DNA of 41,735 nt. Source: a virus. Every line of letters begins with the position of its first letter. Positions within the stretch are counted from its first letter, which is position 1. The stretch spans positions 1 to 41,735 of the IMG/VR virus record IMGVR_UViG_3300042923_000189; one strand, 5' to 3'. A program made the translations under genes and the position numbers. A model generated the notes under the pieces. That model saw only the letters and a list, made by a program, of their open reading frames with translations. It did no database searches and had not been told where the DNA came from. Below are positions 15,467 to 34,709 of this stretch, in pieces.

Positions 15467-15866
15467 TATTAAGGCAGCTATTGTAGCTAAGCTCAAGGAA
15501 CTTTATCCCCTAATACGTAGATACACCGATGATGATATACCTCAAAACTTTGCAAAGCCATCCTTCTACTTATCGGTCTTTGATCAGGAATATGGAAACC
15601 TGTTAAAGAACCGTCATAAGGGAGTTATTAGTTTTGACCTGGCATACCACTCGGATAAGGAGTTGGCAACGATTAAAAGCGATTGTCTGCTAAAGCAAGA
15701 AGAATTGTTACGAGGGCTTAATCTTATCGGAATATTTAGAGCTAGTAACAAGAATGCAAGAATCACGGACAATGTGCTGCATATTACTTTTGATGTGCAT
15801 TACCGTGAAAAGGTAATTGATAATTCTGAGCAAATGCAGTCGCAAACCACAAATACAAATATCTAA
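15456..15866 (+). CDS. Tail terminator family protein (136 aa)
   Basis: ATG 15456 follows AGGGTGAG. The protein has the alpha/beta layout and the IPQNFAKPSFYLSVFDQEY motif of phage tail terminators of the DUF6838 kind, with IKSDCLLKQEELLRGL helix and a final strand pair (VLHITFDVHY). It caps the tail tube and sheath and joins them to the head. It lies directly before the sheath gene, the normal position. Confidence 0.8.
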   Translation: MISSIKAAIVAKLKELYPLIRRYTDDDIPQNFAKPSFYLSVFDQEYGNLLKNRHKGVISFDLAYHSDKELATIKSDCLLKQEELLRGLNLIGIFRASNKNARITDNVLHITFDVHYREKVIDNSEQMQSQTTNTNI

Positions 15867-15882
15867 GAAAGAAGGGTGAGAA

Positions 15883-16923
15883 ATGGCAGGAATATGGACT
15901 TCACAAGATAAGGTGCTTCCTGGTGCCTATCTAAATTTTAAAACCAATTCCGCTTTATCCATAACGCCGGGAGAGCGAGGCACAGTAGTGATCTTACAAG
16001 AGCTGAGTGCCGGTGTGCAAGATACGATATATGAGATTACGGCTACAGATGCAAGTGAGTGGCCTGCAGGTGTAACTGATGCCGATAAGTTCTTGGCAGG
16101 CGAAGCGCTGAAGAATGCAAAGACCGTCTTAATATATAATCTTGGCGCAACCGCTCATGACGCAACGGACCTCGCAACTGCTCTAGCAGCTATCGAGACG
16201 GTACAGTTTAATGTACTATGCTATCCATATGATACAGCTTTAAATCATGCAACCATCAAGACATGGGTGGAAGCCATGATAGAAGACGAGGGTATTAGTA
16301 TCCAAGCTGTATTACCGGATTACGTAGGTGATTACGAGGGTATTATCAATGTTGATCAGGCGGTTGTTTTATCGGATAACACGGAACTAACCAAGGCACA
16401 GACTACAGCATGGGTAGCAGGTGCCACCGCCGGAGCTACGATATACCAGAGCAACACAGGAAAAGTTTACGAGGGCGCTATTGATGTGACACCAAGAATG
16501 ACCAAAACAGAGATGGCTGCAGCTGTAACGGCCGGAGGGTTTATCTTCAAAGTTGACAGCGCGCAGAATGTAAGTGTTGTATATGATATTAATTCGTTGA
16601 CAACCCTGACAGCCACTAAGGGTAAGCAGTTCCAGAAGAATAGGGCCATTCGGACTATCAATGGCATCAATAATGATATCACCAAGATATTTGAAGCTAA
16701 TTATATTGGCAAAATCAATAATAACGCTGATGGAAGATCTCTTCTCAAATCAGCTCTCGTTGGCTACTTTGTTGAACTGCAGAGGCTTGGTGCTATTCAG
16801 AACTTTGAGCCAGATGACGTTGTGATAACGGCAGGTACGGATTCCGACGCAGTTGTGATCGATTGCTATGTGCAGTTGGTGGACAGTGCGGAGAAGATCT
16901 ATATCTCTGTTAACTTGTCCTAA
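15883..16923 (+). CDS. xkdK: Tail sheath protein
   Basis: The 346-residue protein opens MAGIWTSQDKVLPGAYLNFKT and contains GERGTVVILQEL, as in XkdK-type sheath proteins. The C-terminal domain has IRTINGINNDITKIF and LLKSALVGYFVELQRLGAI, the part that interlocks adjacent sheath subunits. It defines a contractile (myovirus) tail. ATG 15883 follows AGAAGGGTGAG. The gene is immediately followed by the tube protein, as in PBSX. Confidence 0.93.
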   Translation: MAGIWTSQDKVLPGAYLNFKTNSALSITPGERGTVVILQELSAGVQDTIYEITATDASEWPAGVTDADKFLAGEALKNAKTVLIYNLGATAHDATDLATALAAIETVQFNVLCYPYDTALNHATIKTWVEAMIEDEGISIQAVLPDYVGDYEGIINVDQAVVLSDNTELTKAQTTAWVAGATAGATIYQSNTGKVYEGAIDVTPRMTKTEMAAAVTAGGFIFKVDSAQNVSVVYDINSLTTLTATKGKQFQKNRAIRTINGINNDITKIFEANYIGKINNNADGRSLLKSALVGYFVELQRLGAIQNFEPDDVVITAGTDSDAVVIDCYVQLVDSAEKIYISVNLS

Positions 16924-16940
16924 GGAAGGAGGAATAATCA

Positions 16941-17417
16941 ATGTCAGATAATTATTTAGATGTACGTGATATGCCTCAGCCCGGAGAAGGCAAGGCATTT
17001 GTTACTGTGAATGGCCAGAATAGAGAAATGTGCGAGGTGTCGAGCTTAAAGGCTCAGATAGACCAGTCGGTAATCACCCGATATACTCTCGGCCGGAAGA
17101 TGGCACAGCACAAGCGAGGCAGAGCGGAGGGAACTGGTTCCGGAACATTCTACTTCAATAGCTCCCAGATGTTAAAAGAGTATATCGCATACTCAAAGAC
17201 CGGTAGACATGCACCTGTTAGTGTCCAAGGATACAACGAGGATGAACAATCAACGATCGGCAAGCAGGAAGTGCTTCTGAGCAATGTCATTATTAAGACC
17301 ATACCGGTTTTAATTCTTGATGATAATTCAGAGGACCCGATCACTTTTGATAGTGATTTCACTTTCGATGATGTTCAGTTGCTTTCTTCATTCACTACAC
17401 CGGCTAATTTTATTTAA
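16941..17417 (+). CDS. xkdM: Tail tube protein
   Basis: The 158-residue product starts after GGAAGGAGG and begins with MSDNYLDVRDMPQPGEGKA. It carries GRKMAQHKRGRAEGTGSGT and FDSDFTFDDVQLL near its end, typical of XkdM-like tail tube proteins. It forms the inner tube rings within the sheath. The terminator at 17432 directly follows, which would cut expression of the chaperone and tape measure genes relative to the tube. Confidence 0.92.
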   Translation: MSDNYLDVRDMPQPGEGKAFVTVNGQNREMCEVSSLKAQIDQSVITRYTLGRKMAQHKRGRAEGTGSGTFYFNSSQMLKEYIAYSKTGRHAPVSVQGYNEDEQSTIGKQEVLLSNVIIKTIPVLILDDNSEDPITFDSDFTFDDVQLLSSFTTPANFI

Positions 17418-17431
17418 TCGCAACTACAGAC

Positions 17432-17461
17432 AAGGGAGGCTTAACCGCTTCCCTTATTTTT
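17432..17461 (+). terminator. Attenuating terminator after the tail tube gene
   Basis: AAGGGAGGC and GCTTCCCTT pair over 9 bp (one G-T) with a 6-base loop, followed by ATTTTTA. It falls between the highly needed tube and the low-abundance chaperone genes. Confidence 0.75.
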
Positions 17462-17479
17462 AAAAGAAAGAGGTAGATC

Positions 17480-17881
17480 ATGGGTTCATTAAGTGCATTC
17501 TTAAATCCTATCAAAATTGATAATAAAGAAGTTATTGTTTCTAATCGCTTCATTGAAGATGGCAAGCCTGTACCGTTTGTTATCAGACCGATTACGGAAG
17601 AGGAAAACAAGCAACTTATCAAGGCATATACTAAACCAGACAAAAAAGGCAACGATGTATTTGACCGTACCGAGTATGTTCATGGAATGGTTGCGAAAGC
17701 CGTTGTATCACCCGATCTGATGAACGCAGAGCTGCAAAGCGCATACGGCGTTATGGGAGAATCTAAGCTCCTTCAGAAGATGTTGTATATCGGAGAATTC
17801 GCTGCATTATCGGCAGCTGTACAGGAAATATCAGGACTCGACAAAGACATCAATGAGGAGATTGACGAGGCAAAAAACTAA
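17480..17881 (+). CDS. xkdN: Tail assembly chaperone G (XkdN-like)
   Basis: The 133-residue zero-frame product starts at ATG 17480 (AGAAAGAGGTAGATC upstream). It has the XkdN layout: beta-rich start with an IDNKEVIVSNRF segment, RPITEEENKQL, and helices containing the ALSAAVQEISGLD stretch. This protein type binds the tape measure during tail assembly. The final codons GCA AAA AAC TAA contain a slippery heptamer in the correct phase, so a fraction of ribosomes will shift into the -1 frame and make a longer GT fusion. Confidence 0.9.
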   Translation: MGSLSAFLNPIKIDNKEVIVSNRFIEDGKPVPFVIRPITEEENKQLIKAYTKPDKKGNDVFDRTEYVHGMVAKAVVSPDLMNAELQSAYGVMGESKLLQKMLYIGEFAALSAAVQEISGLDKDINEEIDEAKN

Positions 17882-18081
17882 TTGCGCAAGGTGACGCCGA
17901 GTTTGTGTTGGCTCACTTTGCCTTGCAAAAACTTCACATTCTTCCGTCTCAACTAGATGCTATGAGCAGTAGAGAAAGATCATTTGTTTACGCAAGCATC
18001 CAACGCAGAGGGGAAGAGGAAAACAAGAACAAGAAGCCTTCTCCGAAAACACCCAAAAAGAAGGGAGGTAGAAGAAAATAG
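17480..18081 (+). CDS. Tail assembly chaperone GT fusion by -1 frameshift (200 aa)
   Basis: Shifting one base back at A AAA AAC adds 67 residues (starting LIAQGDAEFVLAHFALQKL) to the 133 of the G protein. The extension is helical, then Arg/Lys-rich (ending KTPKKKGGRRK), typical of the T domain that contacts tape measure and tube. The T frame has no start codon or ribosome binding site of its own, which supports frameshifting. Its stop TAG at 18079-18081 overlaps the apparent start of the tape measure. Expression level relative to G would be set by slippage. Confidence 0.85.
17872..17878 (+). promoter_or_regulatory. Slippery heptamer for -1 ribosomal frameshift
   Basis: A AAA AAC in the zero-frame phase (17872-17878), directly before the TAA at 17879-17881. 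In the -1 frame the following reading is open for 67 codons to 18081. This is the classical X XXY YYZ signal of tail chaperone genes. Confidence 0.9.
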
Positions 18082-19871
18082 CAGGATTATCAACAATATT
18101 TAAACTATTTGATGGTTACTCCACAACCGCAGATAAAATCATCAGCAAGACAGATAGGGCGACTAACAAGATACTTGGTGCCTCATCGGCAACCGATAGG
18201 TTAAATTCCAGATTGAATGCAACCGGGGTTAGCGCTACCACGGCTGGTACCGGATTGGAAAAGCTGGTAGGAAAAGTTGCTATGTTAACCGGCGCCATGA
18301 AAGGTATCGACATCTCAGACTCTTACATGAATACTAGTGCAAGGCTTGGACTGATCACTGATGATCTGAAAGAACAGAAGGCATTGCAAAAAGATATATT
18401 TGCAGCAGCCAACAGATCTAAGGGTTCATATGCAGGCATGGCGAATGCGGTCGCAAAACTCGGTATTACAGCTATGGATGCATTTGGAAGTAATTCAGAA
18501 CTCGTTGGGTTCACAGAGCTCTTGCAGAAGTCTTTCAAGGTAGGTGGTGCAAGCCAATCAGAGCAATCATCCGGTCTATTGCAATTAACGCAAGCGATGG
18601 CCGCAGGAAAGCTTCAGGGTGATGAATTCCGTTCGATCATGGAGAATGCTCCAATGGTTGCCATGGCGATCGCTGAGTATACAGGCAAGAGTAAAGGTGA
18701 GTTAAAAGAAATGTCCGCAGACGGATTAATTACTGCTGACATCATAAAGAATGCAATGTTCATGGCTGCTGACGATATCAATTCGAAATTCGCTGATATG
18801 CCTTATACGTTCGCCGACATCTGGACAAAGGTTAAAAACGGAGGTCTTAAGGCGTTTGATCCGGTAATCAATAAGATTAATAAACTCATTAACACAGACG
18901 GATTTATGTCTTTTGTCGATAGGGTGATCGGTGGATTTAATACTGCCGCGAATGCTGTTAGTTGGTTTATCGATGCTATAGTGGCAGGATGGCCGGTTAT
19001 TCAACCGATACTATTCGCAATTAGCAGTGTAATGCTTGTAGACATGATCAGGAAGATATACATAGCTGCTGCAGGGTGGTGGTCAATGCACTTGCCTATA
19101 CTTCTTATCATTGGAGTAATCGCATCGGTCATCATAATTTTAAATCATCTCGGGATATCGTTCCAAGACATATTTAGCTTTGTCGGTGGAGTTGTCGGTG
19201 TATTCGCTACATACTTCTATAATCGGTTCGTCTATATGTGGAATTTTGTAGCAGCCTTTATTAATTTCTTTGGAAACGTGTTCAATGATCCGGTGGCATC
19301 AATTAAGGCTTTGTTCTTGGATCTAGCAGTAACCGGCCTTGGATATATCGAGAAGCTTGCTCAAGGCATTGAGGACGTTCTCAATAAGATACCTGGTGTG
19401 AACATTGATTTAACGAGCGGGATAGAGAGCTTTAAGAATAAGCTGGCTGACGCATCCGCAAGCATAAAATCCGAAGCACAACTCAAGACCTATGTACAGT
19501 CCAAAGACTTCATGGATTACTCCGAGGGATACACCAAGGGTAGCAATATGGGATCTGATATATATTCGAAGATGTCAGGAGCCATCACAGGATTAACGGA
19601 TTCTATTACCGGTACATCATCTGATCCAACAATCGTTGAGGGATCCGGTGCTAATGGCGGGGTCAAGGTAGATATGTCTGATGAGGATTTATCTTATCTT
19701 CGTAGTTTGGCCGAGAGAGATTATATCAATAAATTCAGTTCGGCAACACTTGCACCGAATATTGTCTTCAATATAAGCGACGTCAAGGAAACAGCCGACC
19801 TAAATGTATTAAAGGGATATCTTGAAGGTATTATGCGTGAAGAAATTGATCTTGTAGCAGAGGGGGATTAA
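18078..19871 (+). CDS. Tail tape measure protein, apparent AUA start
   Basis: The reading frame is open upstream of the first canonical start (TTG 18213), and its first codons read AGLSTIFKLFDGYSTTADKI, the usual tape-measure N terminus, directly after ATA 18078. GGGAGGT (18064-18070) is correctly spaced before this ATA. The ~597-residue protein has the tape-measure core (DEFRSIMENAPMVAMAIAEY, residues ~180-200), Ala/Gly-rich helices, and transmembrane-like segments around residues 300-390. It sets tail length and helps DNA pass into the cell. Length predicts a short tail of about 90 nm. The ATA overlaps the TAG of the chaperone fusion. Confidence 0.85.
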   Translation: MAGLSTIFKLFDGYSTTADKIISKTDRATNKILGASSATDRLNSRLNATGVSATTAGTGLEKLVGKVAMLTGAMKGIDISDSYMNTSARLGLITDDLKEQKALQKDIFAAANRSKGSYAGMANAVAKLGITAMDAFGSNSELVGFTELLQKSFKVGGASQSEQSSGLLQLTQAMAAGKLQGDEFRSIMENAPMVAMAIAEYTGKSKGELKEMSADGLITADIIKNAMFMAADDINSKFADMPYTFADIWTKVKNGGLKAFDPVINKINKLINTDGFMSFVDRVIGGFNTAANAVSWFIDAIVAGWPVIQPILFAISSVMLVDMIRKIYIAAAGWWSMHLPILLIIGVIASVIIILNHLGISFQDIFSFVGGVVGVFATYFYNRFVYMWNFVAAFINFFGNVFNDPVASIKALFLDLAVTGLGYIEKLAQGIEDVLNKIPGVNIDLTSGIESFKNKLADASASIKSEAQLKTYVQSKDFMDYSEGYTKGSNMGSDIYSKMSGAITGLTDSITGTSSDPTIVEGSGANGGVKVDMSDEDLSYLRSLAERDYINKFSSATLAPNIVFNISDVKETADLNVLKGYLEGIMREEIDLVAEGD

Positions 19872-19873
19872 TA

Positions 19874-20752
19874 ATGGGATACGTAGTATATTTTGAATTT
19901 CAAGGTCTTATATATAAGCTCCCTGTTAATCCCGAAGAAATGAAAGAAAAGTCCGTTATGGCTATCGAGAAGATGAAGGTACTAGGGCTTGGATCTATAG
20001 CGGTACCTACAGATATGGAGCTGAGATCATTCTCGTTCGAGACAGAACTGCCAGCTTCGGAAGCCACGTACTCAACCACTGGCAATGAATTCTACAGCGC
20101 AAGAGACTTTTTAAAGAGCATGAAAGCAATCAGGGATAACTTATTGCCAGTTAGGTTTGTTTATGGTCCAGATGAAGACAATAGCGGTGCTCTGACAGGC
20201 TCAGAGGGTGAGAGCGTACTTGTACTGATTGAACAACTAGAACTTACGGATAAAGCAGGCGAAGAAGGTGATAAGTACGTAAGTTTTGAATTACTCGAGT
20301 ATAAAGACTTTGGTAAAAGATACGCAGAGCTTGCCGAGATATCTTCGTTTTCTACCGGGGCAAAACTTGTAAGGAAAAAGAAAAGCACTCCTAATCAACA
20401 AAACCCCAAGTCTAGCGGGTATTATGTGGTCAAGGATGGAGATTCGCTCTGGTCGATTGCTAAGGCTCAGCTTGGGGATGGTGCAAAATGCAATATTATA
20501 TTTTGGGGAAACCCAAATACAATAAAAAATCCTGCCGTTATCAGAGCTGGTTGGAGATTAAAAATTCCTACTAAGGATGAATTCTCAAAATATGATAAGC
20601 CACTTCCTAGGATTGAAACCAAAGTAAATATTGATACCAAGAAGAAGTCGGATGCCGAGACTCTTAATATGTCTGGATATAATATATCTGGATACCGAGG
20701 CGGATCTTCTCCTGCAGGTAAGACGCATTCAAGTGGAGGAGGTAAGTTCTGA
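19874..20752 (+). CDS. xkdP: LysM-containing baseplate/tail protein
   Basis: The 292-residue protein starts after AGAGGGGGA. The N-terminal ~150 residues match XkdP-type sequences (VNPEEMKEKSVMAIEKMKVLGLG), and a LysM domain follows around residues 180-232 (YYVVKDGDSLWSIAKAQLGDG, then WGNPNTIKNPAVIRAGWRLKIP). A Ser/Gly-rich tail follows. The LysM binds glycan chains in the peptidoglycan, placing the protein at the tail tip. Its TGA overlaps the next ATG. Confidence 0.9.
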   Translation: MGYVVYFEFQGLIYKLPVNPEEMKEKSVMAIEKMKVLGLGSIAVPTDMELRSFSFETELPASEATYSTTGNEFYSARDFLKSMKAIRDNLLPVRFVYGPDEDNSGALTGSEGESVLVLIEQLELTDKAGEEGDKYVSFELLEYKDFGKRYAELAEISSFSTGAKLVRKKKSTPNQQNPKSSGYYVVKDGDSLWSIAKAQLGDGAKCNIIFWGNPNTIKNPAVIRAGWRLKIPTKDEFSKYDKPLPRIETKVNIDTKKKSDAETLNMSGYNISGYRGGSSPAGKTHSSGGGKF

Positions 20753-33154: not shown

Positions 33155-34387
33155 CTATATTGCTTTAAACATTTTTTTACGTTCCTCTCGGGTGAGAGTC
33201 TTTTCTTCTGTGGTGGTAGTCTTCTCAGGTTTGACATTTGGCTTGATGGAATTATTAATTTTATTGGCTGCTTCTTCATCCATGTCTTTTAATACATGCT
33301 GATAAACTTCTCTCAGTGTAGACACTGTAGAATGCCCAAGACGCTCCGCAGCAACTTTGTCCGATATATTTCCTCTCAACATCACAACTGCATTGTAATG
33401 CCTCAGGTCGTGTAAACGAATATGCGGAAGATTGTACTTGTCCAACAAATAATTAAATCTCTGAGAAAGAGATTTCGGTTTCCACCGGGTGACAACATTG
33501 GTATCTGAACCCGGCTTTCCACAAGATACATAATGTCTTTGTAATGTTTCGATGACATATTCAGGGGCTGATATGGTTCTCTTGCTTGTTTCGTTCTTGG
33601 GATCCTTCTCGATATTACTTGTAAAGTTTACCATGGTCTGTTCTATGGTGATAGTTTTTGCCTTGAAGTCTACATTTTCCCATCGCAATCCGAGAATTTC
33701 GCCACGCCTTAATCCTGATCCGGCCCCCAGGATGATCGGAACTTCTTCATCTTTTCCATGAACAAAATCAAGTAATTTAAGAAACTGGTCTTTGTTATAT
33801 ACAACAGGTCTATATTTTACCATAGGAGACAACTCTACTCCATCGGTCGGGTTAGTCCTGATTTTGCCATTAATCATCGCATAGTGTAGTGCAGCTTTAA
33901 GAAATTTATTAAGCTTAATAACAGTGTTGATGCTGAGCTTCGGCATTGTTTGGGTGACAATCTTGTCGCCATGCTTAACTTTATGCTCCCTCTCATTAGA
34001 TAGTTTGAAATTATAAAACGTATCCAGCGTTATGGTTTTTATATCTTTGAGTTTCGTATTACCAAAATAAGGCTCAAAATGCACATCAATATACATTTTG
34101 AATAGTTCTGCGGTAGTCTTTTCCCACTTTGCCTTGTCTGGGCGTTTTGATTTTGGGTCCCACATATCATATCCGGCTCTTATCCGGTGATATGATTTCA
34201 AAAACGCAATCAATGTATCTTTGTTCGGAGGAGTATACTGCCCGGTTCGAATCTCAAATAAAATCTCACCTGCTTTTTCAATAACTTCTTTTTCTGACCA
34301 TCCGTAGATGAGTTTTGGTCTACTCGCTCCAATATCAACAGGATATACCCATCTACCATCTGAATTTCTCTGATAAGGTTTTCCCAT
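33155..34387 (-). CDS. int: Tyrosine integrase
   Basis: The start at 34387 follows AGGAGGTAATTGT on its strand (an upstream Met at 34411 lacks a ribosome binding site). The 410-residue protein has an N-terminal Arm-DNA-binding domain (AP2-like, MGKPYQRNSDGRWVYPVDIG), a core-binding SAM-like domain (~70-190), and a catalytic domain with GLRRGEILGLRW (first Arg), LHDLRH (HxxR), GHSTVSTLREVYQHV (His and the Tyr nucleophile). It mediates integration and excision at the tRNA-derived att site. It starts just after the stop of the repressor gene, so the two are one leftward operon. Confidence 0.95.
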   Translation of the reverse strand: MGKPYQRNSDGRWVYPVDIGASRPKLIYGWSEKEVIEKAGEILFEIRTGQYTPPNKDTLIAFLKSYHRIRAGYDMWDPKSKRPDKAKWEKTTAELFKMYIDVHFEPYFGNTKLKDIKTITLDTFYNFKLSNEREHKVKHGDKIVTQTMPKLSINTVIKLNKFLKAALHYAMINGKIRTNPTDGVELSPMVKYRPVVYNKDQFLKLLDFVHGKDEEVPIILGAGSGLRRGEILGLRWENVDFKAKTITIEQTMVNFTSNIEKDPKNETSKRTISAPEYVIETLQRHYVSCGKPGSDTNVVTRWKPKSLSQRFNYLLDKYNLPHIRLHDLRHYNAVVMLRGNISDKVAAERLGHSTVSTLREVYQHVLKDMDEEAANKINNSIKPNVKPEKTTTTEEKTLTREERKKMFKAI

Positions 34388-34391
34388 ACAA

Positions 34392-34709
34392 TTACCTCCT
34401 ATATAAATCAATCATCTGGTCAAGCTTCTCGGGAGATACGTCTTCCTTGATAGCTTTATCGATCACGCTTATATATTCTTTTTTGTTAGCAAACTGTATA
34501 GTGCTAAAATCTCCGTTGCCCGCAAGCCAATCCAGCGTAACGCCAAAATAATCAGCTAAGCTTATCAATGCCGATAATCCAGGCTCAGACTTCCCATGCT
34601 CATATCTCCATATTAATGATTTTGTGCTGTCAACTGCTTCAGCGAGTGTTTCATATGATAGCTCTTTCCTTGTTCTTAACATATTCAGCCTTTTCGCAAA
34701 CTCATTCAT
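34392..34709 (-). CDS. CI-like repressor (105 aa), HTH only
   Basis: I start at ATG 34709; GAGG lies ten bases upstream on its strand. The HTH is clear (RKELSYETLAEAVDSTKSLIWRYEHGKSEPGLSALISLADYF, residues ~13-52), and the C terminus is a short helical tail (DVSPEKLDQMIDLYRR) without an S24/LexA peptidase. It should keep the lysogenic state by binding the operators near 34825 and 35146. With no cleavable domain, it cannot respond to RecA directly. Its stop lies four bases from the integrase start. Confidence 0.85.
   Translation of the reverse strand: MNEFAKRLNMLRTRKELSYETLAEAVDSTKSLIWRYEHGKSEPGLSALISLADYFGVTLDWLAGNGDFSTIQFANKKEYISVIDKAIKEDVSPEKLDQMIDLYRR

Follow-up and report, generated by a model that had tools for sequence, protein, structure and literature searches.

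A tape-measure gene with a probable AUA start at the end of a frameshifted tail chaperone, and recurrent near-cognate starts in its relatives

Using comparison of related phage loci, we find that the tape-measure protein (TMP) gene of the window (i.e., the whole 41,735-nt stretch analyzed here, IMG/VR virus record IMGVR_UViG_3300042923_000189) is very likely translated from an AUA codon at position 18078, and near-cognate initiation held up by a strong Shine-Dalgarno (SD) sequence is, with high probability, the best account of this start. The AUA start had originally been predicted from the letters and open reading frames of the window, and it is well supported by a conserved N-terminus, by the spacing of the SD, by the lack of a better start, and by the near-cognate codons present in relatives.

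Tail module of the window

The window contains a contractile-tail gene set (sheath, tube, XkdN-like chaperone, and TMP_3 tape measure, assigned with Pfam and PHROG) and an integrase gene, and since both are present we consider this phage to be probably a temperate myophage (Table 1). The TMP scores 161.9 bits against PF20155 TMP_3, where the curated cut-off is 41, and the gene order fits this family, with the TMP gene located downstream of the tail tube and frameshifted chaperone genes and upstream of further tail genes. The 3′ end of the chaperone gene reads GCA AAA AAC TAA, and the arrangement is of the G/GT type, with a slippery heptamer where G ends and a -1 frame that is open to the TMP start. 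Translation of this T extension gives LIAQGD...KKKGGRRK followed by a stop that begins 1 nt into the ATA, which confirms the predicted ATAG overlap. An Rfam search of positions 17300-18400 returned no matches. The hairpin between the tube and chaperone genes is the sole terminator-like site within 15500-20500; across loci, terminators are present upstream of 110 of 314 chaperone matches, duplicates included.

Table 1. Features of the tail module and integrase gene, in window coordinates
Feature	Position	Strand	Evidence
Tail tube protein gene (DUF2001, XkdM-like), ATG start	16941..17417	+	PF09393 E 2e-26; PHROG 365
Intrinsic-terminator-like hairpin, 9 bp then ATTTTT, between tube and chaperone genes	17432..17455	+	fold z -3.45
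Tail assembly chaperone (XkdN-like, G product), ATG start, TAA stop	17480..17881	+	PF08890 E 1e-37; PHROG 389
Slippery heptamer A AAA AAC directly 5′ of chaperone TAA	17872..17878	+	sequence
Stem-loop just 3′ of slippery site, possible frameshift stimulator	17882..17928	+	17880-17960 fold -24.4 kcal/mol, z -2.71
-1 frame extension (T part) of chaperone, ~66 codons, stop TAG 18079-18081	17878..18081	+	translation and conserved relatives
SD GGGAGGT	18063..18069	+	GGAGG-to-ATA gap 9 nt
Proposed ATA start of TMP gene, overlaps T stop (ATAG)	18078..18080	+	column is ATG in relatives; no canonical start upstream
TMP gene, 597 codons and stop	18078..19871	+	PF20155 TMP_3 E 2e-47; PHROG 1068 E 2e-144, residues 19-596
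TTG, first in-frame ATG/GTG/TTG; unlikely start	18213..18215	+	SD run 4 nt, gap 12
Integrase gene	33155..34411	-	PHROG

The proposed start at ATA 18078

Following an in-frame TAG (18069-18071), the TMP frame reads AAG AAA ATA GCA GGA TTA, and as originally stated it contains no canonical start upstream, the first in-frame ATG, GTG or TTG being TTG 18213. The predicted spacing of GGGAGGT to the ATA is correct (an SD run of 6 nt at a gap of 9 nt), and this gap resembles those in related loci, where the median is 8 for canonical and 9 for non-canonical TMP starts. Since an SD run of at least 6 nt at a gap of 5-11 occurs at 699 of the 41,735 window positions and is not rare alone, the weight for the ATA comes from the homology of the 44 codons between it and the TTG, and from the ATG column in relatives. 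In these 44 codons, 27-31 residues are identical to the four closest relatives, so that the residues encoded from the ATA are typical of the family, and the predicted N-terminal peptide, AGLSTIFKLFDGY, is exact. Against nine relatives, 21-31 of the 44 residues are identical, with dN of 0.28-0.52 and dS of 1.2-2.6 or saturated, and because codons 2-45 are thus conserved despite much synonymous change, the segment upstream of TTG 18213 appears to be translated. Relatives on viral contigs align with the window TMP from residue 1, and most of them contain an ATG at the column of the ATA, which is the result that the original prediction looked for in homologues. The window TMP therefore combines the two features by which we recognize a near-cognate start, i.e., no canonical start with a usable SD, and coding conservation that extends up to the ATA.

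In-frame read-through of the TAG at 18069-18071 was considered and rejected, as this stop interrupts the TMP frame two codons (AAG, AAA) ahead of the ATA and no usable start was found upstream. The ATA leaders of the window and of one relative (L043:2001) resemble the ATA ATG GCA of other relatives with the ATG codon missing, and in both the distance from the SD to codon 4 is 3 nt shorter than in, e.g., L056 and L008.

Non-canonical starts in related tape-measure genes

We read 362 TMP frames at the homologous column, 216 of which were retained after removal of near-duplicates. By hand check, 9 of these 216, the window included, contain a non-canonical start: ATA in the window and L043, ATC in L002, L122, L130 and L134, ACG in L025, CTG in L202, and GTA in L227. 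Each of the relatives' non-canonical starts is located behind an SD. Eight of the nine codons are one base from ATG; the GTA of L227 is two bases from ATG, and one base from the start of its nearest relative, L232, which is GTG. Twelve more TMP frames came from 199 genomes searched later, with one non-canonical start among them (ATC, in L429). The record titles of L122 (Clostridium sp. Cult2) and L134 (Paenibacillus sp. L3-i20) are those of named strains rather than of metagenome bins. Within the set, each of the nine non-canonical TMPs has a canonical TMP as its nearest relative, so that losses of the canonical start look repeated.

Comparison of L122 with L429 showed that, in addition to the ATC, 13 of 15 leader bases are shared, with a dN of 0.14 and a dS of 1.36 over the first 200 codons, as if the ATC start had been kept across a long divergence. 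Since L066, which contains an ATG, is about equally close to both, the two ATC codons may instead have arisen through two parallel changes. Residue 2 is small in all nine non-canonical TMPs (A, A, A, A, T, V, A, S, G), which would be compatible with removal of the initiator Met. From the recurrence of near-AUG codons, it seems that a start of deliberately low quality is tolerated by this gene, or used by it. In a further locus, L343, a TMP N-terminus that begins with ATG appears to be broken by an in-frame stop, TAG, at codon 7.

Comparison with neighboring genes

As controls, we used 579 starts of the sheath, tube and chaperone genes and of two downstream genes of the same loci. Two non-canonical candidates were found among them (ATA in a downstream gene of L227, CTG in the second downstream gene of L362), giving 9 of 216 for the TMP against 2 of 579 for the controls in the hand-curated sets, with p = 2.3e-4, a value that is optimistic, as are all p-values given here, because related phages are not independent samples. 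These two candidates lie downstream of the TMP gene, at L227:3324-3714 and L362:4387-4741.

Because hand checking was more thorough for the TMP than for the controls, the test was repeated blind. An SD-free version, limited to frames with a profile match beginning at position 5 or earlier, counted those with no ATG, GTG or TTG between the upstream stop and a point three codons beyond the first aligned residue, and gave 5 of 140 TMP frames against 2 of 538 controls (p = 0.005), or 6 of 140 against 4 of 538 without the three extra codons (p = 0.007). Of three settings used for blind counts based on SDs, two failed to separate TMP from controls (2/216 vs 5/579; 8/216 vs 19/579), and the remaining one gave a difference in the opposite direction (30/216 vs 166/579), since the control genes have weaker SDs. 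The enrichment in the TMP rests on the SD-free blind test and on the uneven hand checking. Canonical TMP starts are also weaker than those of neighbors, with GTG or TTG in 43 of 207 against 57 of 574 (p = 1.4e-4; starts picked automatically, under SD settings that differed slightly between TMP and neighbors). A second tape-measure family in Bacilli, PF10145, contained no clear non-canonical start among 29 frames, several of which have ambiguous starts, and 29 frames are too few to exclude a rate of 4%.

Alternative explanations

The window is a single metagenome record, and a 38-base probe found no exact matches, its own record possibly having been left out, which would be consistent with the ATA being an ATG altered by a sequencing or assembly error or by a recent damaging mutation. 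This is unlikely, because near-cognate starts recur at the same column, in eight other deduplicated loci and in L429, and L122 and L429 keep ATC at a dS of ~1.4; in addition, the records of L122 and L134 are titled as named strains, L002 and L110 agree over the compared stretch (though possibly from one sample), and the rate in neighboring genes is ~tenfold lower. Translation from TTG 18213, which was named at the outset as an outcome that would overturn the AUA start, has in its favor that this is the first canonical start in frame; however, its SD is poor (4 nt at a gap of 12), and it would drop 45 residues, the 44 compared being conserved, so that this reading is contradicted and extremely improbable. 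We also find it very improbable that a G-T-TMP fusion is made through another -1 shift, at A AAA TAG, stimulated by the SD. The window would allow it, as its last T codon (AAA) is preceded by an A, the SD is upstream, and a -1 step from T enters the TMP frame, but the signal is not conserved, with other loci ending T in codons such as AGA or CGT; moreover, the T/TMP frame relation is different in L002 and L227, and a long distance separates T from TMP in L134 and L202.

A stronger version of the AUA-start explanation, compatible with it and suggested in the original prediction, is that TMP translation depends mainly on ribosomes that have entered the T frame by frameshifting and re-initiate at the AUA overlapping the T stop. 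Consistent with this are the ATAG overlap itself, the position of the T stop, which in 111 of 182 loci (including seven of the nine non-canonical ones) is no more than 40 nt from the TMP start, the presence of AAAAAAC at all 181 of the 181 chaperone stops examined, and the description of re-initiation as a known route in PMC2268962. The same SD and overlap layout nevertheless occurs with ATG, which is the codon in 73 of 97 close cases, so that coupling is not specific to AUA; in addition, the T stops of the non-canonical L134 and L202 lie at 752 and 487 nt from the TMP, so a weak codon can do without coupling. PMC2268962 also reports that excess IF3 lowers re-initiation, from which it would follow that start-codon checking applies to ribosomes that re-initiate as well. 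We consider a main dependence on frameshifted ribosomes to be possible, and lean against it.

Where the T stop is more than 200 nt from the TMP gene, 40 of 45 loci contain an intrinsic terminator in the 130 nt upstream of the TMP start, compared with 2 of the 111 close loci. In L134 (813-1565) and L202 (776-1263), a small extra gene is located in the gap between the T stop and the TMP gene. A terminator upstream of the TMP was rejected as a general throttle, as in these two loci it may belong to the small extra gene.

Discussion

A non-canonical tape-measure start has a precedent in mycobacteriophage Corndog, where, according to PMC4351075, LC-MS/MS peptides of the TMP begin right after an ACG that is ATG in Catdawg and Dylan; the authors report no obvious reduction of TMP expression and leave ribosome bypassing open. 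We read nine Corndog-related records, six of which (Firecracker, YungJamal, Smooch, Ashwin, Vorrps and Murai) contain ACG GCA behind GGGGTGATCTT, and three of which (Suarez, Ryadel and Catdawg) contain ATG at this column. All six ACG records (L420, L421, L422, L423, L427 and L428) annotate the TMP ~600 bp downstream of the peptide-supported start. As in the window, the Corndog TMP follows a frameshifted chaperone, has a near-cognate codon where relatives have ATG, and has Ala as residue 2, with peptides supporting translation from there (PMC4351075); in contrast to the window, Corndog is a Mycobacterium phage with a long flexible tail. This paper was the sole tape-measure precedent that our literature search found, and others may be in print. 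As far as our searches show, what is new is that non-canonical starts, of several codons, recur in a different tape-measure family and that they have been compared with the starts of neighboring genes.

Near-cognate codons behind strong SDs are also described in Staphylococcus aureus (infC AUA, ccpN AUA, citZ AUA and cvfC1 AUU), where, according to PMC13009471, output is low when measured, AUA and AUU starts with extended SDs giving ~10% of AUG output and the ccpN AUA up to 30% in rich medium. These are host genes with no frameshift overlap, unlike the window, and none of the extended-SD motifs as defined there (AGGNAT, AGGNGT, GGGNAT or GGGNGT, within 20 nt upstream of the start) is present in the 20-nt leader of the window. 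The lambda-type G/GT system resembles the window in having -1 slippage near the chaperone end, beside the tape-measure gene (PMC5009743), and differs in that the chaperone of the window is of the XkdN type, from a contractile-tail phage.

In the near-cognate initiation that we favor, the initiator tRNA would read the AUA while the 6-nt SD, at good spacing, holds the ribosome there. Ribosomes that slip -1 at A AAA AAC would end at the UAG overlapping the AUA and could re-initiate at it, and de novo entry of 30S subunits at the SD is probably possible too. The tape measure is needed in low copy number per tail, and the net effect would be a low rate of TMP synthesis, tolerable or even useful since so few copies are required. 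By analogy with the S. aureus genes, TMP output from the AUA is probably low; by analogy with Corndog, where expression of the TMP was reported as not obviously reduced (PMC4351075), a strong throttle seems disfavored.

We tentatively propose, while holding it to be somewhat less than an even chance, that near-cognate starts have a hot spot in the tape-measure gene across unrelated tailed phages. They would be kept because a poor start with a strong SD, when supplied with frameshifted ribosomes, sets the ratio of chaperone to tape measure, and gene finders would miss the N-termini concerned. If this pattern is real, start-codon quality would partly set tape-measure output, and the stoichiometry of tail assembly would become testable with a single-codon reporter. 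Gene finders restricted to ATG, GTG and TTG would then be trimming conserved TMP N-termini, the six Corndog-type records being an example.
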